In this document: positions 21,819-49,218 of the stretch, piece after piece
How positions within the stretch are numbered: the first letter of the stretch is position 1
Layout: the number at the start of each line of letters is the position of its first letter
NCBI GenBank assembly: GCA_902595115.1
Contig: CACJOS010000007.1
Coordinates: 1-54,209 of the forward strand
DNA: 54,209 nucleotides
Direction of reading: 5' to 3'
Origin: an uncultured Pelagibacteraceae bacterium
Lineage (GTDB): Bacteria; Pseudomonadota; Alphaproteobacteria; Pelagibacterales; Pelagibacteraceae
Position numbers and translations under genes: made by a program
The notes under the pieces: generated by a model
What the model was told of the DNA's origin: nothing
The model's database searches: none
The model's input: only the letters and a program-made list of their open reading frames with translations

Positions 21819-21855
21819 CTTTAAAAGTAAAATTAATTATTCTAATTTTATAAAT

Positions 21856-23970: not shown

Positions 23971-24013
23971 GTTCACTCTATATTGCAAGTAATTAGTGCG
24001 TTTTTTAGAGGGG

Positions 24014-24043: not shown

Positions 24044-24075
24044 AAGCTTTTAATTAATTCATTGGAGGGAAAATA

Positions 24076-33001: not shown

Positions 33002-35161
33002 TTAAAAGACTTTATTTAGTTCAATATAAGCTTCTCTTGCATCGCCTATATTTGTTAAATCATCGTTCAAATTAAATATTAAATCAAATCCTTTTATATC
33101 TTTTTTAACCTCAAGTTTTGACATTAAATTTTCTGAACCATTTAATGTAAAAGCATATTCGGTGTCTTTACTTGGTAAATAACCCACTGCTATATATAGA
33201 TTGTCTGTATGTCCGTAATCAATTGCTTGGTCTCTTTCATATATTATAAAAATACTATAATTTTCAGGAAAAACGATATCTATGCCTAATTCACCGCTAA
33301 TGTTATGTAAAGCTCCCACGTGCAATGTATCTGAAAAAGTTTCTGATCCTCCTTTATATTTATATTTAAAATCAGATGATCGATCTATATCGGCCCGGTA
33401 TTCGATTTTTCCATGGCGTTTTATGGTATACTTATCATTTGATATATCTTCGACCGCTGCAAGAGAAGCCCTGAGATTTTTGGTTCTGACATGCTGTTTC
33501 TCAACACTAATTCCACCAACACCAACTTCTGTATAGTCATCAAGTAAAGTGTGACCGATATCAAGTCGTCCAGATGGGATTAATGTAAATTTATCTCCCT
33601 TTATTTCATCTTTAATTTTTATTGTTCCAAATATTTGGTCACCTCTTCGATTAGCAGTCAATGCATTACCATCTAATACCGTCAGTATATCGGAGTGAAA
33701 TCTGCCAACACCAATTATGGTATCAACAAATTTTTCATTATCCTTCATTGGAGATGTTCTATAATACGTAAGGTTATAACTATCAGCATCTACTTTGCTA
33801 CCCATATTGCCAACATCAACATTATTTCTTCCAACACTAAATGCTAAACCTCTTAAGGCTTTATTATCTATAAATCTATCAGCTCCAACTGTTATTCTGT
33901 TGGTGTTAATTTCTTTAGTGGAGGAAATACTAGTATCTCCTACCCGGCCAATAGCGATACTTCCCTCGCTCCAATAAAATATATCTCTATTCTTATCTTT
34001 ATCCTTTTTTTTCTTTTTTGCAGCAGAGGTTCGAGCAACCTCGGTTAAAGAAGCAAGTCTTTGATTGTTAAAATTAAAATCAATATTTAAATTAGTTAAA
34101 TTTTGTTTATCTTTATTTCTTCTAATCCACTTCAATCTATTTAAAGCGGTATCGGTTGATTGATCAATCGTTCTTTTTGCAATTTCTATTTGAGCCATTG
34201 CTATTCCTGTTCTGTCTTTATTTTCTGTTATCGGTGGACATTTGCCAGCAAAAAGATTGAACGGACAAGGCAAGTGATGCTCTTTCACCTGATCGTGATC
34301 TGTACCTACAATAAACATTTTTAACCCGGATGGACTAAAGGCTATACCGTTAGGGTTACTACTTCTATTCACACCACCATCAAAAGAAGCTGTCGAAATG
34401 TTAAAACCCTCAGATAAAGTATATTGATTAACATCATTACCTAGTGTTCCTATCAAAAACATCCTTGTACCATCCTGATTGAAAGCCATTCCATACGGTT
34501 CCTTCTCACCTGCACCTGTATCATTTAGAGCCTCCAAATCAGCAGATCTAATAAAATTAGCTCCACCCGAAAAATCAAAACTTATATTCAATGAATATTG
34601 ATGCACACTTTCACTTGAACCTCCTTTAGCTCTACCATCAGTAACATACATCATTGTTCCATCATTATTAAAAGCTAGACCAAATAAATTTTGAAGAATT
34701 TTCGCTGAAACATCAATAGAATTTCCAGTATGGGTTGCTGATGACACATCGAAATTTATAGAAAGCGAATATTCATATACTTTATCAGTTTGTCTTCCAC
34801 CAATAAACATTTTTGATCCATCATTGTTAAACTTAAGACTCATTGGATTTGTATCTTCGGTGGCGACTGAAAAGCTATCAATAAAAACAGCTGTCGATAC
34901 GTTAAATGCTGTTGATAGAGTATATTCATTTACATCTCGACCAGCTTCTCCGACAACAAACATTTTTTTTCCATCATTACTAAATGCAACATCTCTGGGA
35001 AGACCTTCTTCACTTGAAACATTAAATGTTCGTATTTCATAATTAGAAGTAGAGAGAGTGTCGCCGCTTGCTATAAAATTAGCATAAGCGTTTTGAACAA
35101 AAATATTAGATATTGGTAATAATATAAAAAATACAAATAGGATTTTTTTTATTAAAGACAT
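33002..35161 (-). CDS. Beta-propeller autotransporter-like surface protein
   Basis: A 719-residue exported protein. A signal peptide (MSLIKKILFVFFILLPISNI, cleavage near AYA) is followed by about five repeats of roughly 45-50 residues between residues 30 and 310. Each has a pattern like FSNDGKKMFVVG, then VNEYTLSTAFNVSTA, typical of a beta-propeller. A helical linker (LKWIRRNKDKQNLTNLNI) leads to a C-terminal barrel-like domain with FYWSEGSIAIGRVGDTS and a terminal Phe, as in outer-membrane proteins. It is a paralogue of the next gene upstream. The ligand or target is unknown. Confidence 0.82.
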   Translation of the reverse strand: MSLIKKILFVFFILLPISNIFVQNAYANFIASGDTLSTSNYEIRTFNVSSEEGLPRDVAFSNDGKKMFVVGEAGRDVNEYTLSTAFNVSTAVFIDSFSVATEDTNPMSLKFNNDGSKMFIGGRQTDKVYEYSLSINFDVSSATHTGNSIDVSAKILQNLFGLAFNNDGTMMYVTDGRAKGGSSESVHQYSLNISFDFSGGANFIRSADLEALNDTGAGEKEPYGMAFNQDGTRMFLIGTLGNDVNQYTLSEGFNISTASFDGGVNRSSNPNGIAFSPSGLKMFIVGTDHDQVKEHHLPCPFNLFAGKCPPITENKDRTGIAMAQIEIAKRTIDQSTDTALNRLKWIRRNKDKQNLTNLNIDFNFNNQRLASLTEVARTSAAKKKKKDKDKNRDIFYWSEGSIAIGRVGDTSISSTKEINTNRITVGADRFIDNKALRGLAFSVGRNNVDVGNMGSKVDADSYNLTYYRTSPMKDNEKFVDTIIGVGRFHSDILTVLDGNALTANRRGDQIFGTIKIKDEIKGDKFTLIPSGRLDIGHTLLDDYTEVGVGGISVEKQHVRTKNLRASLAAVEDISNDKYTIKRHGKIEYRADIDRSSDFKYKYKGGSETFSDTLHVGALHNISGELGIDIVFPENYSIFIIYERDQAIDYGHTDNLYIAVGYLPSKDTEYAFTLNGSENLMSKLEVKKDIKGFDLIFNLNDDLTNIGDAREAYIELNKVF

Positions 35162-35228
35162 CAGAGTTTTTTATATGAATTATAATTTAATGCATTATTT
35201 AATATACTCAAAAATGCTGAAATTTTAT

Positions 35229-37337
35229 TTAATTTACATTCGAAATTTTTAAATAAAGCCCATAATCTGGGTCGTCTTTTAAAAAATCATAATGACTATC
35301 CAGATTAATTTTGAAACCATTTAACTCTTTGTTATGTGAAAGTTTTGCTGATGTATCTTGAATGGACATGGCATAAGAAGACCTTTGAGAACCTCTGTAA
35401 TCTAAAGCAATATTAAAACTATCATTCTTACTATTTTTAGCCTGATCCCTAGTGTACTTAGTCATTAAAGTTAAACCAGTCTCCGACACAAAATCAAATC
35501 CAATACCACCTATAAAATTGTGAGTAGAGTTTTCTATACCTTTCAAAGTAAATTCCTCACCATTAGAAATGTAAGAAAATGTCTGTTTTGAAGCAGGACT
35601 CATATCGGCGTAATATTCAAAATCAAAATACGGAATAAATGATCCAACTTCAAAATCGTAAGTATTATCTAAACTTGTTCCTACAGAAGATGTAAAATTT
35701 CCAATATATTGATCTTCATATTCTAGATTTAATCCCTCAGATCCTGTTTCTTTATATGCACCTAAATGTGTTATTCCATAATTAATTTTTAATTTAGGAG
35801 TAAAATTTAATCGATTTTTTGAAAAAGTATCTCTCAAGCTAAAGGATCCATATAATTGTTCGCCGTATCTGTCACCATTTGTTGATTGAGATCCGCTGTT
35901 ATTTATTAAATTTGAATTTATAAAACTCATGCCTAATAAATGATCTGTAAATCTTTCTTCACCTTTTGGCTTTGTTTCATAAAAAGTTAAACTAAAAGAA
36001 TTCATATCTAAAGCACTTCCAAGGTCACCAACATCAACATCATCAGTACCAAATCTTAAAGCAATACCTCTCATAATATTATCCTGACCTTTTTTATCTG
36101 CTCCAAGAGTAATGGCGGAAGTGTTAATACTTTTTGATGAAGATTGACTAGTGTCACCCGTGCTTCCAATGCTGATAGTTCCTTCGCTCCAAAAAGACCA
36201 GCTTGAATTTTGATAATCCGACCCACTATTACCATCATTGGAAAAATAAATTGGAATTAAAGTATCTGTTAAGGAATTCAAAATTGCATTATTAAACTGA
36301 ATCTTAATGTTTTGATTAGTTAAATTAACTCTTCCGCTATTTCGTCTTAACCATTCCATACGGTTGATAACTGGGAATGTTGTGTGCTGTATAATTTTTT
36401 TTGTTGTCTCTGATTGTGTTTCAATAGAAGCTACATCATCTTTGTTTGCTGTTGGATCGATGCAACTGATGACACCAAAACCACAAGTTAAATCATATTC
36501 ATTAACATCTCTATTAGCAGCATTATTTTTGAAATCTAAAATAAATAATTTAAGACCATCAGCACTAAATGCAATTCCTGAAGGTTCTTCAATTTGGCCA
36601 GAGAGGTCGTAACCACTCGACTCAAGTGTTACATTAGATAAATCAAAAGGTGTGCTTAGTGTGAATTCTTTAATTTTTTGTGTGCCTGTTCCTGTAACGT
36701 ACATTTTAGTTCCATCAGAGCTAAATGCAAATCCTTGTGGAGTCCCATTTATTTGTCTTAAAGTTTTGCTGCTCGTTCCAGTATATTCTTTTTGAAGAAC
36801 TGCGTTTGAGAGATCAAAGGGACTACCCAATGAATATTGTTTAATAGAGTCATTACCTGTCGCATCATAAATAAAAAGTTTTGTTCCATTCGTATTAAAT
36901 GCGATAGCTACAAAATCCAAACCATCCCCATTAAAATATACATTCTGATGTGTACTGGTTGAAACATCATAGGCAGTTGATAAATTATACTCATTTATTT
37001 CTTGATCATCTGTTCCAGCAAGAAACAATTTTGTACCATCAGAATTAAATTTTATATCTTTTGCATCTATTTGTTCTGATACATGAAGATATTCATTAGA
37101 ATTTTTGGTAGCAGTTGAAATATCGAAAGCTGTAGATAAATCAAATTCGAAAATTTTATTTTGACTCATTCCAACAACAAACATTTTAGTTCCATCTGGT
37201 TTAAATGTTATTCCATGTGCGAGTTTTTGCGTAATACCTTTGCTGTCAACAAATCCACTTACAGCTGCAAAAGTAATTGAACTTTGCAAAATAAGAATAA
37301 CTAAAATAATTATTTTTAATTTGAAAATTTTATTCAT
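35229..37337 (-). CDS. Beta-propeller autotransporter-like surface protein, paralogue
   Basis: A 702-residue protein with the same layout as the gene at 33002-35161. A signal peptide (MNKIFKLKIIILVILILQSS, cleavage near TFA) is followed by propeller repeats (FKPDGTKMFVVGMSQNKIFEF and similar) and a linker (MEWLRRNSGRVNLTNQNI). The C-terminal barrel has WSFWSEGTISIGSTGDTS and ends in Asn rather than Phe. The two genes are 67 bases apart in the same direction, so a tandem duplication is likely. Their divergence in the propeller part suggests different ligands. Function unknown. Confidence 0.82.
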   Translation of the reverse strand: MNKIFKLKIIILVILILQSSITFAAVSGFVDSKGITQKLAHGITFKPDGTKMFVVGMSQNKIFEFDLSTAFDISTATKNSNEYLHVSEQIDAKDIKFNSDGTKLFLAGTDDQEINEYNLSTAYDVSTSTHQNVYFNGDGLDFVAIAFNTNGTKLFIYDATGNDSIKQYSLGSPFDLSNAVLQKEYTGTSSKTLRQINGTPQGFAFSSDGTKMYVTGTGTQKIKEFTLSTPFDLSNVTLESSGYDLSGQIEEPSGIAFSADGLKLFILDFKNNAANRDVNEYDLTCGFGVISCIDPTANKDDVASIETQSETTKKIIQHTTFPVINRMEWLRRNSGRVNLTNQNIKIQFNNAILNSLTDTLIPIYFSNDGNSGSDYQNSSWSFWSEGTISIGSTGDTSQSSSKSINTSAITLGADKKGQDNIMRGIALRFGTDDVDVGDLGSALDMNSFSLTFYETKPKGEERFTDHLLGMSFINSNLINNSGSQSTNGDRYGEQLYGSFSLRDTFSKNRLNFTPKLKINYGITHLGAYKETGSEGLNLEYEDQYIGNFTSSVGTSLDNTYDFEVGSFIPYFDFEYYADMSPASKQTFSYISNGEEFTLKGIENSTHNFIGGIGFDFVSETGLTLMTKYTRDQAKNSKNDSFNIALDYRGSQRSSYAMSIQDTSAKLSHNKELNGFKINLDSHYDFLKDDPDYGLYLKISNVN

Positions 37338-37359: not shown

Positions 37360-37770
37360 CTATTTTTTTAAATCTTTACATATCTTAGGTGCCCAATTCT
37401 TGGCATCCTGAGAGGTTACATGGAAGTCAAATTTGTCAGGTTTTACAAACATTTTATTTGTATCATCGAATCTACCCTCTTTTATAGTATCCACCCAAAC
37501 AACATAATCAGCTGGAAATAAGCTTCTTGCTTCAGGCGTTGGGCAAATGAAATCAGCTACAACATAATTTCCTTCTGCTTTTAGTTTAATAGCAAGATCT
37601 GCCATTCTCTTTGCTTGTCTTGTTCTTCCCTCTTCAGAAAAATCCCAATCATTTGCAGCTTTTCTTACTTCATCCGCATTTAATCTTTTTGCATTTATCA
37701 TTGGTGCAAGTTCATTTGCTAAAGTTGTTTTACCTGCACCAGGCAATCCCATAACTAAAATAATTTTCAT
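37360..37770 (-). CDS. Small P-loop kinase, adenylylsulfate-kinase-like
   Basis: A 136-residue P-loop enzyme. Walker A is GLPGAGKTTLANELA near residues 7-21, and the blocks RLNADEVRKAANDWDFSEEGR and NYVVADFICPTPEARSLF are like APS kinase (CysC), including the region that binds the acceptor hydroxyl. It is shorter than typical CysC (about 200), so the acceptor may be another small molecule. The ATG overlaps the M24 stop by one base, making it the last gene of the bhmT operon. The role within that operon is unclear. Confidence 0.78.
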   Translation of the reverse strand: MKIILVMGLPGAGKTTLANELAPMINAKRLNADEVRKAANDWDFSEEGRTRQAKRMADLAIKLKAEGNYVVADFICPTPEARSLFPADYVVWVDTIKEGRFDDTNKMFVKPDKFDFHVTSQDAKNWAPKICKDLKK

Positions 37771-39005
37771 TAAATTTTTTCTAAAGGATGATAAGACATT
37801 AGCTCAAGTCCATTTTGTCCAACTAAGTATTGTTGTTCTAATTTAACTCCTTCTTTGCCACCTACTTTACCTATGTAGCTTTCAACAGTTAAAGTCATAT
37901 TTTGTTCAAAACTTCCACCTTGTTCTCCACCATCTGTTGGATATTTAATTTGTGGCCACTCATCACAAAGACCGATACCGTGAACCATACATGAGTAACG
38001 ATTACCATAATATTCCTCAGGTAATAACCATGACTTTTCAATAAATTCTTTAAAAGTCATTCCAGGTTTAATTAATCTTGCATTATGATCTATTTGTTCT
38101 ACTGCCATTGAATATAATTTTTTTTGTTCATCATTGAATTTATGTCCCACGACATAAGATCTTGAAATGTCTGCACAATATCCATATGGACCAACCATAT
38201 CGGTATCAAAAGCAACAATTTCTCCAGTTTGCATTACTTTGTTACTACTCTCTTGCATCCACGGATTTGTTCTTTCACCCGAGGATAATATTCTACACTC
38301 AATCCATTCACCTCCATGCTCGATATTTGTTTTGTGGAGAATAGACCAAAGTTCATCCTCAGTCATACCAGGTTTTAAATCATTTCGCATTTTTGCAACA
38401 CCAATCTCTGCAACTTCTATCGCGGCTTTCATGCATTTTAATTCCTCAGGAGATTTGATTACTCTTGCTTGCTCTAGTATTAATTTTGCATCAACAACTT
38501 CAATACCTTGTTTATTAAGTTCAGATACAGCTGGACCATTTAATACATCAATTGCAATTTTTTTAGTTTTAAAATATTTATTTGATAAGTCTTTAATTTC
38601 ATTAATCCATTTTTTGAGTTGAGCATTTGCTTGATCTCCATTACTAAAATAATCCCAGGTGATTGCTGGTCTAATTTCATCGATTAAATTTAAGTGCTTT
38701 GATAAAATTTCACAATTAAAGTACTCATATAAAATTGTTGGTCCATTAACAGGCACAAAACAATATCTTGTTAGATTGTGCATATTGTAAACACTCATAT
38801 TTACTGTGTCTAAGGCGTATCTAACATTGACTGGATCAAAGAGTATGCATGCCTCGAGATTATTTTTTTCTAATTCTTTTCTAACTCTATCAAGTCTATA
38901 TGATCTTAATTTTTCAAAATTTATCTCATCCTCTTTTAATCTTTTTTTTGTTAAAAATTTTGGTGATGTTTTAATTTCCGGTGCAATTTTTCTACTAAAT
39001 TTCAT
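37770..39005 (-). CDS. DddP-like M24 metallohydrolase/lyase
   Basis: A 411-residue pita-bread-fold protein of the creatinase/aminopeptidase P family. It resembles the DMSP lyase DddP as I remember it. Shared blocks are FDPVNVRYALDTVNM (residues 56-70), GGEWIECRILSSG (231-243), AFDTDMVGPYGYCADISRS and HGIGLCDEWP. Candidate metal ligands are Asp267, Asp269, Asp279, His342, Glu375 and Glu390. Asp348 matches the catalytic Asp of DddP. Ordinary peptidases of the family usually have a different block after HGxGL. It sits in an operon with BHMT and a Rieske oxygenase. If it is a lyase, DMSP would give acrylate and DMS; creatinase or Xaa-Pro hydrolysis are the alternatives. Confidence 0.68.
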   Translation of the reverse strand: MKFSRKIAPEIKTSPKFLTKKRLKEDEINFEKLRSYRLDRVRKELEKNNLEACILFDPVNVRYALDTVNMSVYNMHNLTRYCFVPVNGPTILYEYFNCEILSKHLNLIDEIRPAITWDYFSNGDQANAQLKKWINEIKDLSNKYFKTKKIAIDVLNGPAVSELNKQGIEVVDAKLILEQARVIKSPEELKCMKAAIEVAEIGVAKMRNDLKPGMTEDELWSILHKTNIEHGGEWIECRILSSGERTNPWMQESSNKVMQTGEIVAFDTDMVGPYGYCADISRSYVVGHKFNDEQKKLYSMAVEQIDHNARLIKPGMTFKEFIEKSWLLPEEYYGNRYSCMVHGIGLCDEWPQIKYPTDGGEQGGSFEQNMTLTVESYIGKVGGKEGVKLEQQYLVGQNGLELMSYHPLEKI

Positions 39006-39006
39006 T

Positions 39007-40182
39007 TTAAATTAAATTTTGTGCTACCCATTTATGAAAATGATGAGTTGGATTATCCATTACAGGTGAAAAGTTTCCTCCATTATATGATGGAGAGTTT
39101 CTGCCAGTTTGCATACCCTGTATTATATCAACATCTTCTTTTTGAATGTCTTCCCATTGTTTATGATTTTGTTTTCGTAATGATTTAAATTTATTAGCTT
39201 GAGCTGCTTGTTCACCAACATAATATAACTCCATATGTTCAAGAGTAAACTCATAACTAATTGGTTCAATCCAATAAGCATAGTAATGATCTTTATGAAT
39301 TCCAAGCATAACATTTGGAAACAATGCAACATACTCTGCGATATTTTCTTTATCCTTTGGCCAGTTTGGAAAACTTGGAAGTTTTTCTTTTCCTTTAAAT
39401 TGAGGATTATAAACAACCGTCCCTTGACCAGCAAAGCGATTAGGTAAACCTTGAATATGATAATGGTCCTCTATTTTTGAGTAGGAATTTAATCCTGGAT
39501 GCACCCATGGTAAATGATAACTTTCACAATAGTTTTCAATTGCAAATTTCCAATTGCATTTTGCATTTAATTTGAAATATCCAAAATCATTTGAATGATG
39601 AATTAATTCTCTGTCTTTTATTGACCAAAATTTTTCCCATCTATCGCTTAAGGGTTTTATATATTCTTCAAAAGACATTTCATTTTGATTAATGTTTATC
39701 ATTATTAAATCTAACCAAATATAAGATCTGATTTCTTTTAGATTACTTTTTGATTTATCAAAACCTTCTACAGAATGTTTATTCATACCACCAATGTGAG
39801 GTGTTGCTATTAGTTCTCCATCGAGACTATATGACCAAGAATGATATGGGCATCGAATAAGGCTATTAATTTTTCCACTTTTAGAAACCAGTTTCACTCC
39901 TCTATGACTACAAACATTGTGGAAAACTTTAACTTCATTCTGTTTATTTCTTAAAATTAAAATAGGCATTCCAAGAATATCTATTGGTTTTACATCTCCA
40001 ATTTCAGGTATGGAGCTTGCAACTCCTGCTACAATCCACTTATCTTCAAATAATTTTTTTCTCTCTATTAAAGTATAATCTTTGCTCGTGTAGCATTCGT
40101 TTGGTAATCCATGAGCTTTTTCAATAGAGTTATTTACAACATCTAGTTTTTTTTTGTCTATAATATTATAAATTTCAGACAT
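39007..40182 (-). CDS. Rieske non-heme iron oxygenase, onium-compound demethylase type
   Basis: A 391-residue oxygenase alpha subunit. The Rieske [2Fe-2S] ligands are Cys91, His93, Cys111 and His114 (CSHRG and CPYHSW). The catalytic iron site includes His223 and His228 in NYCESYHLPWVHP, with an acidic ligand likely in EDVDIIQGMQ. This subgroup includes glycine betaine, stachydrine and carnitine oxygenases that remove a methyl group or cleave the C-N bond. Its required reductase is not in the window. It lies one base after the methyltransferase gene group and before the DddP-like gene in the bhmT operon. Confidence 0.82.
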   Translation of the reverse strand: MSEIYNIIDKKKLDVVNNSIEKAHGLPNECYTSKDYTLIERKKLFEDKWIVAGVASSIPEIGDVKPIDILGMPILILRNKQNEVKVFHNVCSHRGVKLVSKSGKINSLIRCPYHSWSYSLDGELIATPHIGGMNKHSVEGFDKSKSNLKEIRSYIWLDLIMININQNEMSFEEYIKPLSDRWEKFWSIKDRELIHHSNDFGYFKLNAKCNWKFAIENYCESYHLPWVHPGLNSYSKIEDHYHIQGLPNRFAGQGTVVYNPQFKGKEKLPSFPNWPKDKENIAEYVALFPNVMLGIHKDHYYAYWIEPISYEFTLEHMELYYVGEQAAQANKFKSLRKQNHKQWEDIQKEDVDIIQGMQTGRNSPSYNGGNFSPVMDNPTHHFHKWVAQNLI

Positions 40183-40185: not shown

Positions 40186-40815
40186 TTATTTTATCACTTC
40201 ATATAACCCAAGCCAAGCATTTACATCTTTGCTTGCAATATAGTCAGATTTAAAAAATTCGATTTCTTTCCATTTATTTTCATTGTTTAATTGTTCAATT
40301 TTTTTATCAAAGCCATACTCTTCGTGTATTCCTTCGTTTATTGTAAAACATATATGTCCTTTATTTTTAGTAATTCTTATAAATTCGTCTAAAGCAGGAG
40401 GTTTAACGTGTCCAAATGTAAAAGTCCCAACACACATCACAGCATCGAAGGAATCGTTTTCTTCTTCAATAGGTTTATTTAAATCTACTTGATCAAGTTT
40501 TTTGTAAAGTTGGTCAGGTACCAAATCTAAGAGTTTTTTTGAAAGATCTGCACCATAAAAATTATGATACCCAAATTTTTTTAATTCAACACCAACTAAT
40601 CCTGTGCCACATCCAGCATCATAAATTTTAGCATCCTTGTTTTTTTGATATTTAATAAATGTTTCAGTAGTTTCTTTTGGACCAGTATAGTTCCAATCAA
40701 GCATGTCTTTATCATATTTATTTTCTTGTCCCCAATCGTCATAATACTTCATTACCTCATCGGTTTTTTTTAATTTATAAATTGGTATTTTGTTTCCTAC
40801 GTCTTTTTGTGCCAT
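40186..40815 (-). CDS. Class I SAM-dependent methyltransferase
   Basis: A 209-residue methyltransferase. The SAM-binding motif I is KIYDAGCGTGLVGVELKKFG near residues 61-80, acidic post-I is GADLSKKLLDLV, and motif IV is SFDAVMCVGTFTFGHVKPPAL. The acceptor is not known. It overlaps the dimethylglycine dehydrogenase gene by one base, and the Rieske gene follows three bases later. In an operon of demethylases, a methyltransferase may act on a product such as a thiol or an amine, or may balance SAM made from BHMT-derived methionine. Confidence 0.86.
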   Translation of the reverse strand: MAQKDVGNKIPIYKLKKTDEVMKYYDDWGQENKYDKDMLDWNYTGPKETTETFIKYQKNKDAKIYDAGCGTGLVGVELKKFGYHNFYGADLSKKLLDLVPDQLYKKLDQVDLNKPIEEENDSFDAVMCVGTFTFGHVKPPALDEFIRITKNKGHICFTINEGIHEEYGFDKKIEQLNNENKWKEIEFFKSDYIASKDVNAWLGLYEVIK

Positions 40816-43220
40816 CAGCTTCTCATTTTTTGTCCTGTTGGATCATAAAGCGGTGATTTTATTACTGAAGAGTTAAACAAATCTCCATTTATTTCCACTT
40901 GAATTCCTTTTTCCGAATTTATTTCTCGGCTATCAAGATATGAAAACGCAACACTTTTATTTGTAAAATGTGCAAAACCTCCTGAAGTTACGTATCCAAT
41001 AGCTTTTCCATTTTTTAATACCGCTTCGTTATTTGTAACGTCAATATCATTTGTTTCTACAATTAATGGTGTAAGTTTATTTTTGCTTTCATCTTTTTTT
41101 GCAAAATTTTTTCCTACAAAATCTTTGTCCCAGTCAATGAATACATCCAATCCTGTCTCTTTTGCAGTAAAGTCTGGTCTATAATCAAGTGTCCAAGCAC
41201 CCCAATTTTTTTCAAGACGCATAGACATTAAAGCTCTTAAACCAAAGGGTTGAATATTAAATTCTTTACCAGCTTCCATTAATTCTTCGTACAATTTAAT
41301 TTGATAATGTGGCGCTGTATAAATTTCATATCCCAGCTCACCAGTAAAAGATAATCGATTTACAATTGCTGGTACTCCACCAACAAACATTTTCCTAGAG
41401 TCTCTAAATTTAAAATTTTTATTTGATACATCTTCTCTTACAATTTTTTGAAAAACCTCTCTGGATTTAGGTCCTGATATTGCTAAACCATGAAAATCAT
41501 CTGATCGATTTTTATAATTTACTTTAAATTTATTTAAATGACTTTCAAACCACCTTCTATGCATTTCTTGAGCTGCTCCAGATCCAAAAACCATAAATTT
41601 ATTTTCATCAATACATGACACGGTAAGGTCACCATAAAGTTTTCCTCTGTAAGTAAGCATTGGGGTAAGAGAAATTCTTCCTGGTTTAGGAATTTTACCA
41701 GCCATAATATAGTTTAAAAAATTTCTAGCATCAGGTCCTTCAAATTCGTGTTTTGAAAAATTTGCAAGTTCCATCACACCTACATTTTCTCTAACATTTA
41801 TAACTTCTTTTGATACGTAATTATGAGATCTTGATCTTTTTATAGTTGGCTCTTCAAAGGCATCTTCTTTATTTTTTGCAAACCATAAAACGCTCTCTAA
41901 ACCAAATCCATCACCCATAACTGCTCCTTGATTTACAAAACGATCGTATAATGCAGTTGTTTTTTGTTTTCTTCCCTTGGGTAAAGTTTCATTTGGAAAT
42001 GTCATTATAAATCGTCTTTCATAATTTTCTGATGATTTAATAGTTCCATACTGTGGAGTAGCATATTCACCAAACCTTGCTACATCCATTGCCCAAACAT
42101 CAATTGAAGGTTCCCCATCTATAATCCATTCAGCGATACATTTTCCAACACCGCCGCCCTGACAAAAACCAGCCATAACACCAACTGCAACCCAATAATT
42201 TTTCATACCAGGAACTGGACCAATAAGTGGACTGCCATCAGGACCGAAAGTAAAAGGTCCATTAACAATATTTTTTATTCCAGCTTTTTCTAATGCTGGC
42301 ATTCTTTCAAATCCTATTGCTAACCTGTCTTGAATATTATCTAGCTTTGGTTCTAACAATTCATGTCCAAAGTTCATTGGAGTTCCATTTATTTTCCATG
42401 GAGTTGACTTAGGCTCATAAGTGCCAAGCAACATTCCTTTAGCTTCCTGTCTAAAATAAATATTTCCTTCAAAGTCTGTACCAATTGGTAATCTTTGATC
42501 CCCCATCGCTTCAATTTCTGGAATACTTTCAGTTATTAAATAATGATGCTCCATTGGTTGAACTGGAAGATCTACTCCAGAAAGATTTCCTACTTCTCTA
42601 GCCCATAAACCGCCTGCATTTATAATTATTTCTGCATTAATATTTCCTTTATCAGTAAATACATCCCAAGATCCATCAGGTTTTTGTTTAGTATCTTTAA
42701 CAACTGTGTGAGTATAATATTTTCCACCATGAACCTTAGCAGCTTTTGCAAATGCATATGTCACTCCTGAAGGGTCAACTTCACCATCAATAGGATCCCA
42801 CAAAGCTAACAAATACCTTTTAGGATCAATTAAAGGATGTTTTTTCTTTACTTCATCAAGAGAAATAAATTCTTGGTCTAGACCCATATATCTTGCTTTT
42901 GATCTTTCCCTCTTTAAATATTCAGCCCAAACCTCATTAGATGCTAAATAAAAACCTCCACTTGGTTTAAAACCAACAGAATGACCAGACTCTTTTTCTA
43001 TCTCTTTGTAAAGACCAATTGTATAGGCCATCATTCTAGAAATATTTGGATCAGATGAAATTACGTGAACATTGCCAGCAGCATGCCAAGAAGAACCAGA
43101 AGTAAGTTCATTTCTCTCAAGTAAAATACAATCTTTTAAACCAAATTTAGATAAATGATAAAGAATTGAACAACCTACTACACCACCACCGATAATGACT
43201 ACTTTTGCATGATTTTCCAT
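40815..43220 (-). CDS. Dimethylglycine dehydrogenase-like flavoprotein with GcvT domain (second copy)
   Basis: An 801-residue demethylating flavoprotein. The FAD site is IGGGVVGCSILYHLSKFG at residues 10-27, with the covalent-FAD His46 in TSGSSWHAAGN. The FAO_M-like middle is followed by a GcvT domain from about residue 465 (NVRENVGVMELANFSKH, SGPKSREVF, GELGYEIYTA, FGLRALMSMRLEKNW). The immediate upstream gene is bhmT, whose product is dimethylglycine, so dimethylglycine is the most likely substrate. No ETF gene lies in this operon; ETF from 1356-2571 could serve both. The paralogue at 2571-5003 may then act on sarcosine. Confidence 0.87.
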   Translation of the reverse strand: MENHAKVVIIGGGVVGCSILYHLSKFGLKDCILLERNELTSGSSWHAAGNVHVISSDPNISRMMAYTIGLYKEIEKESGHSVGFKPSGGFYLASNEVWAEYLKRERSKARYMGLDQEFISLDEVKKKHPLIDPKRYLLALWDPIDGEVDPSGVTYAFAKAAKVHGGKYYTHTVVKDTKQKPDGSWDVFTDKGNINAEIIINAGGLWAREVGNLSGVDLPVQPMEHHYLITESIPEIEAMGDQRLPIGTDFEGNIYFRQEAKGMLLGTYEPKSTPWKINGTPMNFGHELLEPKLDNIQDRLAIGFERMPALEKAGIKNIVNGPFTFGPDGSPLIGPVPGMKNYWVAVGVMAGFCQGGGVGKCIAEWIIDGEPSIDVWAMDVARFGEYATPQYGTIKSSENYERRFIMTFPNETLPKGRKQKTTALYDRFVNQGAVMGDGFGLESVLWFAKNKEDAFEEPTIKRSRSHNYVSKEVINVRENVGVMELANFSKHEFEGPDARNFLNYIMAGKIPKPGRISLTPMLTYRGKLYGDLTVSCIDENKFMVFGSGAAQEMHRRWFESHLNKFKVNYKNRSDDFHGLAISGPKSREVFQKIVREDVSNKNFKFRDSRKMFVGGVPAIVNRLSFTGELGYEIYTAPHYQIKLYEELMEAGKEFNIQPFGLRALMSMRLEKNWGAWTLDYRPDFTAKETGLDVFIDWDKDFVGKNFAKKDESKNKLTPLIVETNDIDVTNNEAVLKNGKAIGYVTSGGFAHFTNKSVAFSYLDSREINSEKGIQVEINGDLFNSSVIKSPLYDPTGQKMRS

Positions 43221-43221: not shown

Positions 43222-44262
43222 TTAATATTTTATTTCTTTGTTTACTTTCTTCAATGTCTTGTCTGTCCCATGGTGAAAATGCTTACTCATATCTGGCATA
43301 TACTTCATAGCAATCGGTTTTTTTCCAACTGCAACTGCCATCTCTCTAACATGATGAGCTTCTGCTCCACAACATATACCAATTAAATTAATTTTTTTCT
43401 CAAGGCATTCTTTGGCGAATTCTGCCATTTCAAATCTGTTACAAAATAAATTATCTAAAGCTACGGGAAACGCATTTCCTCCTGGGATACAATCACATCC
43501 GTGATCAGTTTGATTTAAAAATCCAGGCTCTTCCTCCGTTGTTCTATATGGAACAGGTAAACCTGCGACATGGCATGAAACTTTTTTTCTAACTTCTTTT
43601 AAAAGTTTCATTGTCATTTTAGGACCTCTATAACAATTTAAACCAACAACATCTGCACCAAGATCTTCTATTATTTTACACGCATCTTCAGCTGTGTAAC
43701 CGTCTCTTGTTAAATCTCCTCTAGGTATCGCATAATTAGCTACAGCTATTAAACCTTCATCCTTAATTGCTTTTAATGCTATCTTCATTTCATCTACCCA
43801 ATTGATTGTTTCCGCAACAATAAAATCAACACCTGCTTCTTTTGCCCAAAGCACTTGTTCCTCATACATCTTTTGACATTCTTTAAATGAGTTTTTATCC
43901 TTTGGATCAAAAATATTTGTATTTGCAACATCTCCACAAACCATCAAATCCAAATCTTTAAATTCATTTGCAGCATCTTTTGCGATTTTAAGTGCATTTT
44001 TTTGCATTTGTTCAAGCAGATGTTCTTTTCCAATAATTCTTAATTTTTCTCTATGTCCGTAATAAGTGAAAGCTTGAACAATATCAGAACCAGCTCTTAT
44101 AAATTCTCTGTGTAACTGACTCACTACATCAGGATGCTCTAGCACTACCTCAGGTACAAATGGGCCGGCAGATAAATATCCTCTTCTTTCCATTGCAAAT
44201 AAATACCCTTCTGCAAATATGACAGGACCTTCATCTAATCTTGATAATAAGTTTTTTTTCAT
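43222..44262 (-). CDS. bhmT: Betaine-homocysteine S-methyltransferase
   Basis: A 346-residue enzyme moving a methyl group from glycine betaine to homocysteine, making dimethylglycine and methionine. The homocysteine-site region GSDIVQAFTYYGHREKL is near residues 58-74, and a zinc Cys is in LNCYRGP. The paired zinc cysteines are in IGICCGAEAHHVREM. The strong ribosome site AGGAGG precedes the ATG. It is the first gene of a six-gene minus-strand operon followed by the dimethylglycine dehydrogenase after one base, which gives two consecutive steps of betaine demethylation. In SAR11, bhmT genes are known to be riboswitch-controlled; see the leader entry. Confidence 0.87.
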   Translation of the reverse strand: MKKNLLSRLDEGPVIFAEGYLFAMERRGYLSAGPFVPEVVLEHPDVVSQLHREFIRAGSDIVQAFTYYGHREKLRIIGKEHLLEQMQKNALKIAKDAANEFKDLDLMVCGDVANTNIFDPKDKNSFKECQKMYEEQVLWAKEAGVDFIVAETINWVDEMKIALKAIKDEGLIAVANYAIPRGDLTRDGYTAEDACKIIEDLGADVVGLNCYRGPKMTMKLLKEVRKKVSCHVAGLPVPYRTTEEEPGFLNQTDHGCDCIPGGNAFPVALDNLFCNRFEMAEFAKECLEKKINLIGICCGAEAHHVREMAVAVGKKPIAMKYMPDMSKHFHHGTDKTLKKVNKEIKY

Positions 44263-44535: not shown

Positions 44536-45546
44536 ATGAAAATAAAAAGAATAATTCTTTCTTTACTTGTTGCATTTGGCTTAACTTCTTTTAGTGGAAT
44601 AGCTAACGCTGCATGTGGAAAGATTTCTATTGCTAATATGAACTGGGCATCAGCTAATTTTATGGCTGAAGTTGATAAGGTTATATTAGAAGAAGGTTAT
44701 GGTTGTACTGTGGAACTAGTTCCAGGAGCAACTATGCCAACGTTTACATCGATGCAAGAAAAAGGTGAGCCAGATGTTGCTCCAGAGTTTTGGGCTAACG
44801 CTGCAATCATCGCTTTGAATAAAGCTGTTGATGAAGGTAAAATGCACTCACTTAACAAAGCGCCAATTACTGGTTTGGGTGAAGGTTGGTGGGTATTACC
44901 TCACACACTTAAAAAACATCCTGAGTTAACAACTGCTGAAGCTATTTTAAAAAGACCAGATCTTTTTCCACATCCAGAAGATCCATCAAAAGGTGGTTTC
45001 CATATTTGTCCTCCAGGCTGGAACTGTGAATTAAGTAACAGAAACCATTTTAGAGCTTGGGAAATGGAGAAAAAAGGTTGGAAGATAGTTGAAACTGGTT
45101 CAGCTGCAGGATTAGATGGTTCAATTGCTAAAGCTGCAGAAAGAGGAGAAAACTGGTTTGGTTATTATTGGTCACCAACAGCTATTATTGGTAAATATGA
45201 TATGAGAGCTGTGGATATGGGTGAATGGGGTGGTAAAGACAACTGGGATGGTTGTATTGTTTTACCAGAGCAAGAGTGTGCTAACCCTAAAAAAACTTCA
45301 TGGACAAAATCTGAAGTTTACACAATCGTAACTGATAATTTCAAAAAAACAGCTGGAAACGCTGGTATGGAATACTTTAAAAAAAGAACGTATCCAGGCC
45401 CAGTTATGAACGGTATGTTAGTTTGGATGGGTGAAAACCAAGCAGAAGGTGCTGATGCTGCAATTGAATTCCTAAAAACACAAGAGAGTGTTTGGACCAA
45501 GTGGGTTTCAAGCGGTGCTGCGAAAAAAATCAAAAAGGCACTTTAA
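44536..45546 (+). CDS. Periplasmic binding protein of a quaternary-onium ABC importer (OpuAC/ProX type)
   Basis: A 336-residue exported protein with signal peptide MKIKRIILSLLVAFGLTSFS, cleavage near ANA-AC. The mature part shows the OpuAC pattern: ANMNWASANFMAEV, APEFWANAAI, GLGEGWWVLP and GYYWSPTAIIGKYDM, with Trp residues that could build an aromatic cage. Cysteine pairs (CPPGWNC and CIVLPEQEC) may form disulfides. It is divergent from the bhmT operon and followed by a permease. An ATPase is missing from the operon. The ligand may be an onium compound demethylated by the downstream DmdA-like protein. Confidence 0.9.
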   Translation: MKIKRIILSLLVAFGLTSFSGIANAACGKISIANMNWASANFMAEVDKVILEEGYGCTVELVPGATMPTFTSMQEKGEPDVAPEFWANAAIIALNKAVDEGKMHSLNKAPITGLGEGWWVLPHTLKKHPELTTAEAILKRPDLFPHPEDPSKGGFHICPPGWNCELSNRNHFRAWEMEKKGWKIVETGSAAGLDGSIAKAAERGENWFGYYWSPTAIIGKYDMRAVDMGEWGGKDNWDGCIVLPEQECANPKKTSWTKSEVYTIVTDNFKKTAGNAGMEYFKKRTYPGPVMNGMLVWMGENQAEGADAAIEFLKTQESVWTKWVSSGAAKKIKKAL

Positions 45547-45562
45547 TTAATAGTTAAAATTA

Positions 45563-45592
45563 TCTGAACCCGTTATAATTAACGGGTTCAGA
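45563..45592 (+). other. Perfect 13-bp hairpin between binding-protein and permease genes
   Basis: TCTGAACCCGTTA (45563-45575) pairs with TAACGGGTTCAGA (45580-45592) around TAAT. No U-run follows on the plus strand, so it is not a classical terminator. Such hairpins at a binding-protein 3' end often stabilise the upstream message, giving more binding protein than permease. It lies 16 bases after the stop and 12 before the next ATG. Confidence 0.75.
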
Positions 45593-45604
45593 AATAAAAA
45601 AATT

Positions 45605-46489
45605 ATGGATTTCTTAAATAAAATTCCTGAAATGGACAGAGATGCTTTAAGAGAGTTAAAGAAGGGAATTGATTTAAGTTTTAAAGAATTTTCAAGAGAG
45701 TATGGTGACTCTATAGAGGGTTTTTTTGATCCTCTTTTACATTTTTTAATATGGTTAGAAAAACTATTAGTAAGTAGTCCATGGCCGTTAGTAATTGGTG
45801 TTTTTGGATTATTGGCATGGATAGGATCAAGAAGTATCAAATTAGTTATTGGAACAATGATTTGTTTTCTGATCATTGGATACTTTGGAATGTGGAAAAA
45901 TTGTATGGCTACAGTTGCTATAATTTCTGTTTCAACATTAGTATGTATAGTTGTAGGTATTCCAATAGGTATTTTGATGTCAAAATCTAACAGGGCAGAA
46001 AAAGCAATTTTACCAATTTTAGACATGATGCAAACAATTCCAAGCTTTGTTTATTTAATTCCTATTATAATGTTATTGGGAATTGGAAAAGTTCCTGGAT
46101 TATTAGCGGTTTGCATATATGCGCTTCCTCCAATAGTAAGGCTTACTAATTTGGGAATTCGAGAGGTCGACAAGGAGACTCTGGAGGCAAGTGAGGCCTT
46201 TGGCGCTACCCCGTTCCAAAAATTGAAATCAGTACAAATTCCGTTATCACTTCCCACGATATTTGCTGGAATAAATCAAACTATAATGATGGCTTTAGCG
46301 ATGGTCGTTATAGCTTCGATGATAGGTGTTAAAGGGCTAGGAATTCCAATTCTTCAATCAATTTCTAATCAATATTTAGCCCTTGGAATGATGAATGGAC
46401 TTGCAATTGTGGCCTTGGCCATAATTTTTGATAGAGTTACCCAGCAGTACGGTCAGAGGATCCAAAAGCATAGAGGTCAAAAAAAGTAA
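45605..46489 (+). CDS. ProW-type permease of a betaine-type ABC importer
   Basis: A 294-residue inner-membrane permease with one ProW domain. The transmembrane blocks LVSSPWPLVIGVFGLLAWIG and MMQTIPSFVYLIPIIMLLGI precede the EAA-like loop with YALPPIVRLTNLGIREVD and SEAFGATPFQKLKSVQIPLS, where the ATPase docks. It is the usual single-domain size, unlike the tandem-fused permease at 21856-23970. No ATPase gene follows; the orphan ATPase at 8631-9683 or that at 20731-21777 must be shared. Confidence 0.92.
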   Translation: MDFLNKIPEMDRDALRELKKGIDLSFKEFSREYGDSIEGFFDPLLHFLIWLEKLLVSSPWPLVIGVFGLLAWIGSRSIKLVIGTMICFLIIGYFGMWKNCMATVAIISVSTLVCIVVGIPIGILMSKSNRAEKAILPILDMMQTIPSFVYLIPIIMLLGIGKVPGLLAVCIYALPPIVRLTNLGIREVDKETLEASEAFGATPFQKLKSVQIPLSLPTIFAGINQTIMMALAMVVIASMIGVKGLGIPILQSISNQYLALGMMNGLAIVALAIIFDRVTQQYGQRIQKHRGQKK

Positions 46490-46552
46490 CCTGTTTCAAT
46501 TTGATCTCAAATTTTTATAGACAGTTTTTTCAAAATAAATAAATATCTTCCA

Positions 46553-47281
46553 ATGAACTTTTCTTTAGAAATTGGACCAAAAACAGACCTTTCCACTCTT
46601 CCTACCCTTAAGGATGTTTATATCACAATGCTTCCAGGAGGTGATTATAAAGAGACTGCGGAACAAGCTGTTAAATTAGTTCAAAATGGTTTTAATCCAA
46701 TTCCACATTTCCCGGCACGATCTATTGAAAGCGAAACACAACTAAAAGATTATATTTCTATATGTAAAGACGGGGGTGTGAAACAAGCTCTTATTATTGG
46801 AGGAAGTAGAGAACCAGTTGGTAAGTTCGATAGCTCAATACAACTTTTGGAGACAGGTTATTTTGAACAAATGAAGATAGGAATTGCTGGACATCCAGAG
46901 GGGAGTCCTGATATATCGGATTCTAAATTGGAAAAAGCAATGGAAGATAAAAAGCCTTACGCTGATTATATAGTCACACAATGGTTACTAGATCCTCAGC
47001 CTATAATTGACTTTATATCCAAGCAATCAGTACCAGTTCATGTTGGAATTACTGGGCCACTTAAAATCACTAGCCTTATTAAATTTGCTAATATTGTAGG
47101 TGCAAAAAATTCCATTAACTTTCTAAAATCTAATTTTAGTAAGGCATTAGATTTGATGAAACCTAAAGACCCTAATGAATTAATTGGGAAATTAAAAATG
47201 CATACCGATTTTTTTCACATTTATACATTCGGCGGCTTGAAGGAAACTAACAAGTGGTTGAAGGAGAATGAATATGTCTAA
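46553..47281 (+). CDS. Methylenetetrahydrofolate-reductase-family protein
   Basis: A 242-residue flavin TIM-barrel of the MTHFR family, shorter than MetF (about 290). Family signatures are PIPHFPARSIESETQL, QALIIGGSREPVG, GIAGHPEGSPDI, the ADYIVTQWLLDP region, and VHVGITGPLKITSLIKFA. The expected reaction interconverts 5-methyl- and 5,10-methylene-tetrahydrofolate. Its stop overlaps the DmdA-like gene by 14 bases. This suggests it processes the methyl-folate made there, in the oxidative direction, to feed one-carbon metabolism. The truncation relative to MetF could reflect a specialised partner or cofactor. Confidence 0.82.
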   Translation: MNFSLEIGPKTDLSTLPTLKDVYITMLPGGDYKETAEQAVKLVQNGFNPIPHFPARSIESETQLKDYISICKDGGVKQALIIGGSREPVGKFDSSIQLLETGYFEQMKIGIAGHPEGSPDISDSKLEKAMEDKKPYADYIVTQWLLDPQPIIDFISKQSVPVHVGITGPLKITSLIKFANIVGAKNSINFLKSNFSKALDLMKPKDPNELIGKLKMHTDFFHIYTFGGLKETNKWLKENEYV

Positions 47282-48629
47282 AGAGTTTGATTATTCAAAA
47301 ATGAAACATGCAACGTCTGTGAACCAATCAGACAGACACGTACCTTATAATTTAAGACAAAGTGGACCAACAAAAGTTGAATTGTTAATTTCGACAAGGG
47401 TAAGAAAATCACCTTATTGGCATTTATCAATGAGAGCAGGATGTTGGAGGGCAACTGTATACAATCGTATTTACCATCCAAGAGGTTATGTAAAAGGTAA
47501 AAATGGTGCGATGGTTGAATATAAATCAATTAAAAATGATGTAACAATGTGGAATGTTGCAGTTGAAAGACAAATTAGAGTTAAAGGCAGGGATGCTGAA
47601 AAATTTGTTAATTATGTAATTACTAGAGATGCAACAAAAATATCACCGATGAGAGCAAGATACGTAATTCTTTGTAACTATAAAGGTGGTGTCTTAAATG
47701 ATCCAATATTATTAAGAGTAGCTAAAGACGAGTTTTGGTTTAGCTTGTCAGACAGTGATATCGGTCTTTACTTGCAAGGTGTAAATGCAAATAAAAAATT
47801 TAAATGTGAAATTGATGAAATCGATGCGTGTCCTGTACAAATACAAGGTCCTAAATCTAAAGCATTAATGAAAGATTTAATTGGCAGACAAGTTGATTTA
47901 GATAATATGCCCTACTATGGCTTAGCAAAAGCTAAAGTTGGTGGAAGAGATTGTGTTATTTCACAATCTGGTTTTTCAGGTGAAGCTGGATATGAAATTT
48001 ATTTAAAGAATGCTACAAAATATGCAGATGATATGTGGAATGCAGTTTTAAAAGCAGGAAAAAAACATAAATTAAGAGTTATTGCTCCTGCTCACCACAG
48101 AAGAATTCAGGCTGGAATTTTATCTTGGGGTCAAGACTTAGATCACGAACACAATCCGTTTCAATGCAATCTTGGTTACCAAGTATCATTGTCAGGAAAA
48201 GGTGAATGGAAGAAAAAAGCCAATTATGTTGGTAAGGCTGCTTTAGAAAAAATGAAGAAGCAATTAAATGCTGGTAAAAAACCTTATAAACTCCAATTAG
48301 TTGGAATGGAATTAGGTGGAAAACCAATTACAGAATACGCTCCTGATTTCTGGTTAATTTCTAAACCAAGTGGAGGGAAACCTGTAGGATTTATTACTTC
48401 GCCTTGGTATCACCCAGAAAAAGGAATGAATATCGCAATGGGATATGTCCCTTACGATGGTACGAAAAACCCAAATGGTTTTCCAAAAGGAAAAGTTGGA
48501 ACTAAGTACAAAGTTCATTTACCAAGAAAATATTCTACAAAGCCTGGTAAACCAGTTGATGCTGTAGTTGTAGATATACCATTTACTGAATCATACTACG
48601 CAAATACTAGAGAAGTAGTTAAAGGTTAA
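47268..48629 (+). CDS. DmdA-like GcvT-family tetrahydrofolate-dependent demethylase
   Basis: A 453-residue GcvT-fold protein. It shares with DMSP demethylase DmdA, as I remember that sequence, the blocks MWNVAVERQIRVKGRDA (about residues 92-108), LNDPILLRVAKDEFWFSLSD, IQGPKSKALM, SQSGFSGEAGYEIYLKN and ILSWGQDLDHEHNPFQCN. It is longer than DmdA (about 370), with an extra N-terminal segment of some 70 residues and an expanded C-terminal end. The expected reaction moves a methyl group from an onium donor to tetrahydrofolate. The donor need not be DMSP. An ATG at 47274 is an alternative start. Confidence 0.78.
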   Translation: MNMSKEFDYSKMKHATSVNQSDRHVPYNLRQSGPTKVELLISTRVRKSPYWHLSMRAGCWRATVYNRIYHPRGYVKGKNGAMVEYKSIKNDVTMWNVAVERQIRVKGRDAEKFVNYVITRDATKISPMRARYVILCNYKGGVLNDPILLRVAKDEFWFSLSDSDIGLYLQGVNANKKFKCEIDEIDACPVQIQGPKSKALMKDLIGRQVDLDNMPYYGLAKAKVGGRDCVISQSGFSGEAGYEIYLKNATKYADDMWNAVLKAGKKHKLRVIAPAHHRRIQAGILSWGQDLDHEHNPFQCNLGYQVSLSGKGEWKKKANYVGKAALEKMKKQLNAGKKPYKLQLVGMELGGKPITEYAPDFWLISKPSGGKPVGFITSPWYHPEKGMNIAMGYVPYDGTKNPNGFPKGKVGTKYKVHLPRKYSTKPGKPVDAVVVDIPFTESYYANTREVVKG

Positions 48630-48672: not shown

Positions 48673-49218
48673 ATGTTTGCTGTATTTTTAGATATTGTTT
48701 TTAAATCACTGAGGTTAGATAGATCTCTTTATTCAGATAATAAATATTTTGGAGAGGCTGCTATATACTTTGCTGGCCTGATAATGATTTTAGAAGGCGT
48801 TGCTGGAGCAATTGCTGCAAATAGTATTATTAAAACATCGATAGGACTTTCGGGACTAACTGCTATTTTAACATGGTTTATTTGGTCTATATTAATTTTT
48901 GTAATTGGAGTTAAGCTATTTCCAGACAAAAATAGTAAAATACCATTTAAAAAAGTTCTTATTGGTGTTGGTTATGCCCATGCACCTGGATTAATTAGGT
49001 TTTTTGCAGTCACACCAGATTTAGTTCTACCTGTAATATTTTTAACTCAATTTTGGATTTTTGCGTCTCTTATAATATCAACCAAACATGTTTTGGGACT
49101 TAAGTCTAACTTTAAATCTTTTGGTATAATTTTTTTAGCTTTCTTATTAATTGCATTTTTATCGATATCATTTGTGATTAGTAGAATGAATGCATTGCCA
49201 ATAAGTACAATTAGCTAA
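48673..49218 (+). CDS. Yip1-family membrane protein
   Basis: A 181-residue protein with about five hydrophobic segments and the Yip1-like block LIGVGYAHAPGLIRFFAV near residues 96-113. The family occurs widely in alphaproteobacteria, without a defined function. It begins just after the hairpin that ends the demethylase operon. Its last bases overlap the end of a convergent small gene by four bases. No distinct ribosome site is seen, so its start is less certain. Confidence 0.8.
   Translation: MFAVFLDIVFKSLRLDRSLYSDNKYFGEAAIYFAGLIMILEGVAGAIAANSIIKTSIGLSGLTAILTWFIWSILIFVIGVKLFPDKNSKIPFKKVLIGVGYAHAPGLIRFFAVTPDLVLPVIFLTQFWIFASLIISTKHVLGLKSNFKSFGIIFLAFLLIAFLSISFVISRMNALPISTIS

Follow-up and report, generated by a model that had tools for sequence, protein, structure and literature searches.

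The window analysed here is a stretch of 54,209 nucleotides from an uncultured Pelagibacteraceae bacterium (contig CACJOS010000007.1 of assembly GCA_902595115.1). It encodes a protein of 453 residues (47268-48629, plus strand) that is probably a tetrahydrofolate (THF)-dependent, corrinoid-free glycine betaine demethylase, with a short relative of methylenetetrahydrofolate reductase (MTHFR), encoded directly upstream (46553-47281, plus strand), as its methyl-THF oxidase. Glycine betaine is proposed as the substrate from genomic context. The reaction product and the oxidative direction of the partner are likewise proposals. What the analysis shows is the genes, their family clade and predicted fold, and a context that was compared with control loci.

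In the proposed scheme, the 47268 protein would transfer one methyl group of glycine betaine to THF, yielding dimethylglycine and 5-methyl-THF, a redox-neutral reaction like that of DmdA on dimethylsulfoniopropionate (DMSP). The 46553 protein would convert 5-methyl-THF to 5,10-methylene-THF, to be passed on through THF-linked steps to formate and CO2. The other product, dimethylglycine, would be demethylated to sarcosine and then to glycine by flavin adenine dinucleotide (FAD) oxidoreductase-GcvT enzymes that are also encoded in the window.

Glycine betaine is described in print as a ubiquitous marine osmolyte, and Sun et al. 2011 (PMC3160333) rank SAR11 bacteria first in abundance among ocean heterotrophs. 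In a published passage, the removal of the first methyl group in SAR11 is ascribed to betaine-homocysteine methyltransferase (BHMT) and is called not experimentally validated there. By its chemistry, the rate of BHMT should be limited by the need for homocysteine methylation.

Gene organization

The sequence-only reading of this locus had listed four open reading frames (ORFs) on the plus strand, and all four were found. They encode an OpuAC-type substrate-binding protein (44536-45546, 336 aa; OpuAC 163 bits, cut-off 21.2), an OpuA/ProW-type ATP-binding cassette permease (45605-46489, 294 aa; BPD_transp_1 91.3 bits, cut-off 26.4), the short MTHFR-like protein (242 aa; PF02219 21.4 bits, cut-off 24), and the GcvT/DmdA-superfamily protein that is the predicted demethylase (GCV_T 139.4 bits, cut-off 25.6). 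Gaps of 58 and 63 bases separate the first three genes, and a 14-base overlap joins the last two. The size differences that had been noted also hold. The demethylase-like protein is about 80 residues longer than DmdA (453 against 369 aa in the DmdA of the same genome), and the MTHFR-like protein is about 50 residues shorter than MetF (242 against 296 aa in E. coli MetF).

The reported 14-base overlap stands for the gene as called at 47268, and becomes 8 bases if translation begins at the second ATG, 47274 (MSKEF...), which gives a protein of 451 aa and has AAGGAG 7 bases upstream. The protein may start at 47274 instead of 47268. The overlaps called in orthologs are split between 8 bases (L031 and L033) and 14 bases (L035 and L036). 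An Rfam search of the window, made with a riboswitch near these genes in mind, gave no match over threshold.

Family placement and predicted fold

The 47268 protein scores 231.6 bits on the NCBIfam model for DMSP demethylase, under its cut-off of 410, and 152.8, 132.8, and 119.5 bits on three GcvT models with cut-offs of 300, 235.85, and 459. In a tree of 63 rows, its family forms a clade of its own (40 rows, support 100/100; 41 rows with a 51%-identical outlier, 99/94). An adjoining clade of 14 rows (100/94) holds DmdA and DmdA-like paralogs, and the demethylase family lies outside it. The tree program warned that the rows of the fusion proteins and of P408 are long-branched and unsure in placement. 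A tree had been proposed in the sequence-only reading as a check for membership in a characterized family of other function; it shows instead a separate clade outside DmdA.

An AlphaFold model of the protein (pLDDT 74.8, residues 1-44 poor) has DmdA as its best structural match (3tfh; Z 36.3, rmsd 2.8 over 362 residues), followed by T-proteins (1wos, Z 34.3) and dimethylglycine dehydrogenase (Z 33.9), with LigM at Z 21.8. The YEIY motif is kept, so that the conserved Glu and Tyr of the GcvT-superfamily folate site are present. An aromatic O-demethylase of the LigM/DesA kind has a negligible probability. A similar length would fit it, as would the partner, whose best solved relative is 7xg9 (E 6.2e-33), the MetF of Sphingobium SYK-6, a LigM organism. 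The demethylase itself reaches only 28.7 bits on the LigM model and 42 bits on the DesA model, against cut-offs of 580 and 800, and is far closer in structure to DmdA than to LigM.

A passage in PMC7487153 names W171 as the Trp that is key for DMSP in DmdA. This residue is W197 on 3tfh, as matched by its spacing to the Glu and Tyr. Phe occupies the position in 44 of 45 family rows, the window included (the exception is L125), and Trp in the three DmdA rows. DMSP was rejected as the donor because the genome has a DmdA of its own over the curated cut-off (534.1 against 410), the family forms a separate clade, and the DMSP Trp is replaced by Phe. The earlier suggestion that the donor may be something other than DMSP is thus supported by context and family. 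Trimethylamine N-oxide was rejected on the ground that the genome has its own demethylase for this compound, just over the cut-off (1101.1 against 1100), and homarine, an early idea, was dropped after no gene system for this compound appeared among the papers listed.

The genome has a second DmdA-type paralog over the cut-off (519.5 against 410; L215, G000:C5, 934-2136, minus strand, 401 aa). It carries Tyr at the DMSP Trp position and may not act on DMSP. Its small size, its AT-rich composition, and the presence of DmdA and a trimethylamine N-oxide demethylase make the genome of the window look like one of SAR11. A further DmdA-like clade (L218 1114-2250, L223 660-1796, L228 4676-5860, and others) scores 386-394 bits, just below 410, and keeps the Trp.

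Distribution and conservation of the pair

The demethylase clade spans five bacterial phyla and the haloarchaea. A scan of named genome contigs gave at least 594 confirmed relatives. The best 80 of these 594, which were kept as named loci and are not a random sample, come from Gamma- and Alphaproteobacteria, Actinomycetota, Gemmatimonadota, Acidobacteriota, and Nitrospinota. Plasmids were scanned by tblastn at E 1e-80, which gave 16 records, all haloarchaeal, with 48.5-54.1% identity over 90-100% of the query. Within the class of the window, 19 of 385 sampled genomes carry an ortholog at 51% identity or more. FAO_M, a marker of dimethylglycine dehydrogenase (DMGDH) and sarcosine dehydrogenase (SARDH), occurs in all 19 carriers versus 120 of the 366 other genomes. 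Two genomes of the same family but another genus (G138 and G415) have no match to the demethylase, the partner, or the FAO_M marker, and have a canonical MetF instead (294.5 and 297.7 bits).

Of 41 genomes searched, among them that of the window, 35 carry the demethylase with an identity of at least 76%, some as partial copies at contig ends; the remaining six, which are 55-92% complete, gave weaker matches only. An MTHFR-like gene lies directly upstream in 22 of the 22 neighbourhoods in which that side is visible, in two families of the order; L048 was excluded from this count, as its contig ends there. In the copies of the other family, the demethylase is 76-84% identical to that of the window and the partner only 52-55%.

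The importer half behaves differently from the enzyme half. The binding protein and permease precede the pair in four of 14 same-genus genomes (G000, G004, G020, and G022) and in none of eight genomes of the other family, so the importer is a changeable neighbour and not the fixed part of the system that had been assumed. The proposed four-gene cassette is therefore conserved in its MTHFR-like/GcvT-like pair and not in its importer. A single operon fits the gene layout in the window, with the same reservation about its first half. The proposed coupling of a THF-dependent demethylation to a dedicated MTHFR relative finds support in context and family, as far as these can tell. The importer was rejected as proof of the substrate, given that it is not conserved with the pair.

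A 181-aa protein without a Pfam match (48673-49218) follows the pair in the window. Its relatives do so in the same-genus neighbourhoods with this side visible, and do not in the other family.

Genomic context of the orthologs

Sixteen loci come from the same class as the window but not from its order. Nine of them have an oxidase gene (for dimethylglycine or sarcosine dehydrogenase, or for sarcosine oxidase alpha) no more than about 10 kb from the demethylase gene, and four have an MTHFR gene at such a distance. By the same criterion, an oxidase occurs in none of 15 DmdA-like paralog loci and none of five DmdA loci, and these 20 control loci have no MTHFR either. Fisher's test for 9/16 against 0/20 gives p 1.2e-4, a value that ignores kinship and is drawn from five DmdA loci all of the window's genus and from some short loci (paralog locus L233 has 3.3 kb). 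Among 79 named loci, 50 have an oxidase, 38 an MTHFR, and 55 either of them. After merging at 90% identity, the figure is 25 of 33; where at least 5 kb is available to either side, an oxidase or MTHFR lies within 5 kb in 19 of 23. One of the 80 named loci, L160, did not pass the motif filter applied to the ortholog set and was left out; a DMGDH-like gene neighbours its demethylase gene. The demethylase ORF of L116 was uncalled in the first neighbourhood reading and called in the control comparison, and 276 neighbours are unlabelled, most of them unidentified.

A Marinobacter locus (L138) presents, in order, the demethylase, an MTHFR, a relative of formate-THF ligase, GbdR (506.6, cut-off 480), L-serine ammonia-lyase (689.2, cut-off 345.1), and a DMGDH-like gene. 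A homolog of the formate-THF ligase relative in L158 scores 855.3 against a cut-off of 652. Of 104 loci searched by tblastn, 18 have a GbdR-like gene and 26 a formate-THF ligase-like one. The genes of L138 can be read as a path from betaine through dimethylglycine, sarcosine, glycine, and serine to pyruvate. With the other steps spelled out by neighbours of this type, the demethylase is the natural candidate for the step from betaine to dimethylglycine. Adjacent genes show a shared pathway, not a substrate.

Neighbourhoods were opened for seven of the 16 haloarchaeal plasmid hits. An MTHFR is present in six, one or two genes annotated as 'FAD-dependent oxidoreductase' in five, 'threonine ammonia-lyase' in five, serine hydroxymethyltransferase (SHMT) in three, and a BCCT transporter in three. 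Both of the FAD-dependent oxidoreductases of L128 are DAO-GCV_T fusions. The stretch in L134 has no MTHFR, oxidoreductase, threonine ammonia-lyase, SHMT, or BCCT transporter.

The same neighbours would suit an auxiliary T-protein that passes one-carbon units from the oxidation of dimethylglycine or sarcosine to THF, giving 5,10-methylene-THF. Such a protein would be expected beside DMGDH, SARDH, and sarcosine oxidase genes and would have the T-protein fold that the match to 1wos indicates. This explanation is very unlikely: the two oxidases of the window and two haloarchaeal ones examined have a GCV_T domain of their own, the constant partner in the order of the window is an MTHFR, which is needed for methyl- and not for methylene-THF, and the nearest structure is DmdA.

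The reductase partner

The partner falls under the Pfam gathering score, which its orthologs in G247, G025, and G026 pass; canonical MetF proteins score near 300 bits on PF02219. Compared with E. coli MetF, Glu28 (E28) and Gln183 (Q183) are kept and Asp120 (D120) is replaced by Ser; all three are positions with a role in the E. coli enzyme. The loss of Asp120 was not relied on as a sign of reverse running, since the two aligned partner orthologs of the other family keep this residue.

A PF02219 search of six same-genus genomes found the partner gene alone in four and nothing in two, and thus no second MTHFR that this model matches. A B12-binding match is absent from five of the six, and the genome of the window has two, one of them over the cut-off. 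MetE, MetH, and MtgBCDE are reported absent from SAR11 in a published passage; for MetH, this absence is taken from print, and the B12-binding search supports it only in part. As SAR11 has no known methionine outlet for 5-methyl-THF, the partner suggests the oxidative direction, and it is predicted to oxidize 5-methyl-THF to 5,10-methylene-THF. The role proposed for MetF2 in Ruegeria, in a passage of PMC12478193, matches this oxidative reading.

The importer half

The best solved relative of the binding protein is 7yle (E 1.6e-61). The protein keeps seven of eight pocket residues of RnDmpX, with A153 replaced by Asn, and is a putative aromatic-box onium binder, possibly for DMSP or betaine. 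The permease scores 269.8 bits on the ProW model, under the cut-off of 439. Among the matches listed in the window, no ProV-like ATPase adjoins these two genes; ProV-like ATPases over cut-off lie elsewhere, at 20731-21777 (minus strand) and 8631-9683 (plus strand). The importer probably brings in onium compounds.

These features could also serve a THF-dependent demethylase of another onium compound or of several, such as other betaines or sulfonium compounds, with glycine betaine at most one of them. The relation of the binding protein to 7yle, nearest among solved structures, and its largely retained RnDmpX pocket accord with this, as does a superfamily that spans S-, N-, and O-demethylases. 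The neighbours of the orthologs argue otherwise: SHMT, serine ammonia-lyase, GbdR, and DMGDH or sarcosine oxidase indicate a glycine skeleton, and the pair mostly occurs without the importer. We regard this alternative as unlikely, and glycine betaine remains the preferred donor.

A second onium importer of three genes is located at 20731-25083. It consists of the ProV-like ATPase on the minus strand (20731-21777), a permease of 704 aa that has two BPD stretches (21856-23970, plus strand), and an OpuAC binding protein nearest to 4xz6 (24076-25083, plus strand). The other ProV-like ATPase (8631-9683) is an orphan. It lies between a TauD-family dioxygenase (7371-8495), whose N-terminus resembles that of gamma-butyrobetaine hydroxylase, and a BKACE-family enzyme (10208-11092). 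The genes from 7371 to 11092 possibly function in carnitine or butyrobetaine metabolism.

Known betaine routes in carrier genomes

Enzymes of the known routes were sought in 26 carrier genomes. MtgB (PF06253) occurs in three, one of them as a fragment, and GbcA over its cut-off (670) in none. Nine carriers have no BHMT-like match at 43% identity or more, and 17 have both BHMT and the pair; mutual exclusion of the two was therefore rejected. Eight carriers have neither MtgB nor BHMT (G247, G337, G201, G160, G115, G326, G298, and G056); they are 93-100% complete, and a missing contig is possible. G201 has no match to MtgB, BHMT, or GbcA.

Several observations weigh against a THF-dependent betaine demethylase. 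Rieske enzymes with GbcA scores below the cut-off are present in 23 of the 26 carriers, the best (G341) reaching 635.6, close to 670, and these enzymes could demethylate betaine. BHMT is also present in eight of ten SAR11-like carriers tested, and the betaine step may therefore be redundant in them. In G004 and G012, the PF02219 model did not pick up even the partner, and a further divergent MTHFR may likewise have escaped the search. The expected neighbours were unseen in seven of the 16 alphaproteobacterial loci and in eight of the 33 merged named clusters, some of whose contigs end. The binding protein of the window retains a DMSP-type pocket. No substrate is known for the paralogs closest to the family in the tree, and the superfamily is for this reason no direct guide to specificity. 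Finally, Sun et al. 2011 (PMC3160333) report that SAR11 cultures oxidize labelled methyl groups of betaine. This agrees with the scheme, yet it was dropped as proof of the first step and is undecisive, because two of the three methyl groups would be oxidized after BHMT as well.

Earlier descriptions and implications

Sun et al. 2011 (PMC3160333) describe SAR11_1265 as a probable aminomethyltransferase of unknown substrate that lies beside metF (SAR11_1264) and is close to DmdA; removal of the second DMSP methyl is the function that they offer as a speculation. In a table of a later SAR11 proteome paper, transcripts of SAR11_1264 and SAR11_1265 stand at 0.10-0.20 of the control, apparently in stationary-phase columns. 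These two genes are probably the orthologous pair of the window genes, to judge from their adjacency, the DmdA relationship, and the inferred lineage.

The second DMSP methyl would be removed from methylmercaptopropionate. The relatedness to DmdA and a similar abundance in metagenomes (a passage in PMC3160333) speak for this idea. The five DmdA loci examined share no neighbours with the demethylase loci, the haloarchaeal orthologs lie in betaine-type clusters, and the later SAR11 paper routes methylmercaptopropionate via DmdB and DmdC. The idea is consequently highly improbable, and glycine betaine is retained as the candidate substrate.

The description of the system as undescribed is thus correct only in part: a 2011 paper on SAR11 already lists what seems to be this pair, with its substrate given as unknown. 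In the open-access literature, with subscription papers and bioRxiv largely outside the scope, no paper was found that names a THF-dependent glycine betaine demethylase. New are the separate clade outside DmdA, its presence in five bacterial phyla and haloarchaea, and the proposal of glycine betaine as the donor.

Beyond the function of the window protein, we put forward, with rather less assurance than not, that the family is a fourth way to take the first methyl group off betaine, in addition to GbcAB, BHMT, and MtgBCD, that it works free of B12 and homocysteine in Bacteria and Archaea, and that it, not BHMT, carries the catabolic betaine flux of SAR11. If true, the proposal of BHMT alone in SAR11 would need revision, and a SAR11 enzyme whose substrate has been listed as unknown since 2011 would receive one. 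The family would also supply the first step of betaine use in haloarchaea, which a published passage of 2011 only thought possible. As the related genes suggest, a vitamin B12-free route would then be common to many bacteria and salt-loving archaea.

Other genes beside the pair

A BHMT relative (43222-44262, minus strand) is the divergent neighbour of the four genes; among solved structures, BHMTs match it best (1lt7, 158.9 bits). It is followed by an FAD oxidoreductase-GcvT fusion of the dimethylglycine/sarcosine dehydrogenase type (40815-43220, minus strand) with DAO, FAO_M, GCV_T, and GCV_T_C matches. A second fusion of this type, identified by Pfam, lies at 2571-5003 (minus strand) next to an electron transfer flavoprotein gene (ETF, 1822-2571). 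Relatives of the second fusion, 57-80% identical, adjoin demethylase orthologs in L110 and L119-L123.

A Rieske oxygenase (39007-40182) scores 128 bits on the GbcA model, against a cut-off of 670. Its relatives (58-61% identical) stand divergently beside the pair in seven loci (L031, L034, L035, L036, L049, L126, and L127), which have no importer there. The adjacent M24-type protein (37770-39005) scores 351.5 bits on the model of the DMSP lyase DddP, under the cut-off of 600, and is DddP-like without being filed as DddP. Two tandem proteins with autotransporter domains (33002-37337; 719 and 702 aa) have weak SMP-30/lactonase matches, and their relatives vary in length.

Comparison with known systems

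DmdA (3tfh) shares with the window protein the fold and the Glu/Tyr folate-site motif, and a redox-neutral methyl transfer to THF is assumed for both. The window protein differs in its separate clade, in being 84 residues longer than the DmdA of its own genome, in having Phe for Trp, and in a score below the DMSP demethylase cut-off. LigM and DesA, which are paired with MetF in Sphingobium SYK-6, resemble the system in combining a GcvT-type demethylase with an MTHFR that oxidizes methyl-THF, and the partner is nearest to 7xg9. Unlike the proposed enzyme, they use O-methyl aromatic donors, and the demethylase is only distantly related to them (28.7-42 bits).

BHMT, encoded in the window at 43222-44262, likewise converts betaine to dimethylglycine. 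However, it transfers the methyl group to homocysteine, which ties its flux to methionine, belongs to a different protein family, and is unmatched in nine of the 26 carriers. SAR11_1265/SAR11_1264, as described in a passage of PMC3160333, agree with the pair in adjacency, DmdA relationship, and inferred lineage; the substrate guessed there, in contrast, was the second methyl group of DMSP. The DmpXWV importer of DMSP (a passage in PMC10030565) is similar to the importer half in the seven of eight pocket residues, whereas the importer of the window has no adjoining ATPase gene and is not tied to the enzyme pair. Another parallel to the proposed route is MtgBCD with MetF2 in Ruegeria pomeroyi, for which a passage in PMC12478193 describes a transfer of a betaine methyl group to THF followed by the action of a dedicated MetF paralog. 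A published mtgC deletion strain of this species fails to grow on betaine, also when methionine is supplied. That system is a corrinoid-dependent one of several proteins, and its MtgB occurs in only three of the 26 carriers.

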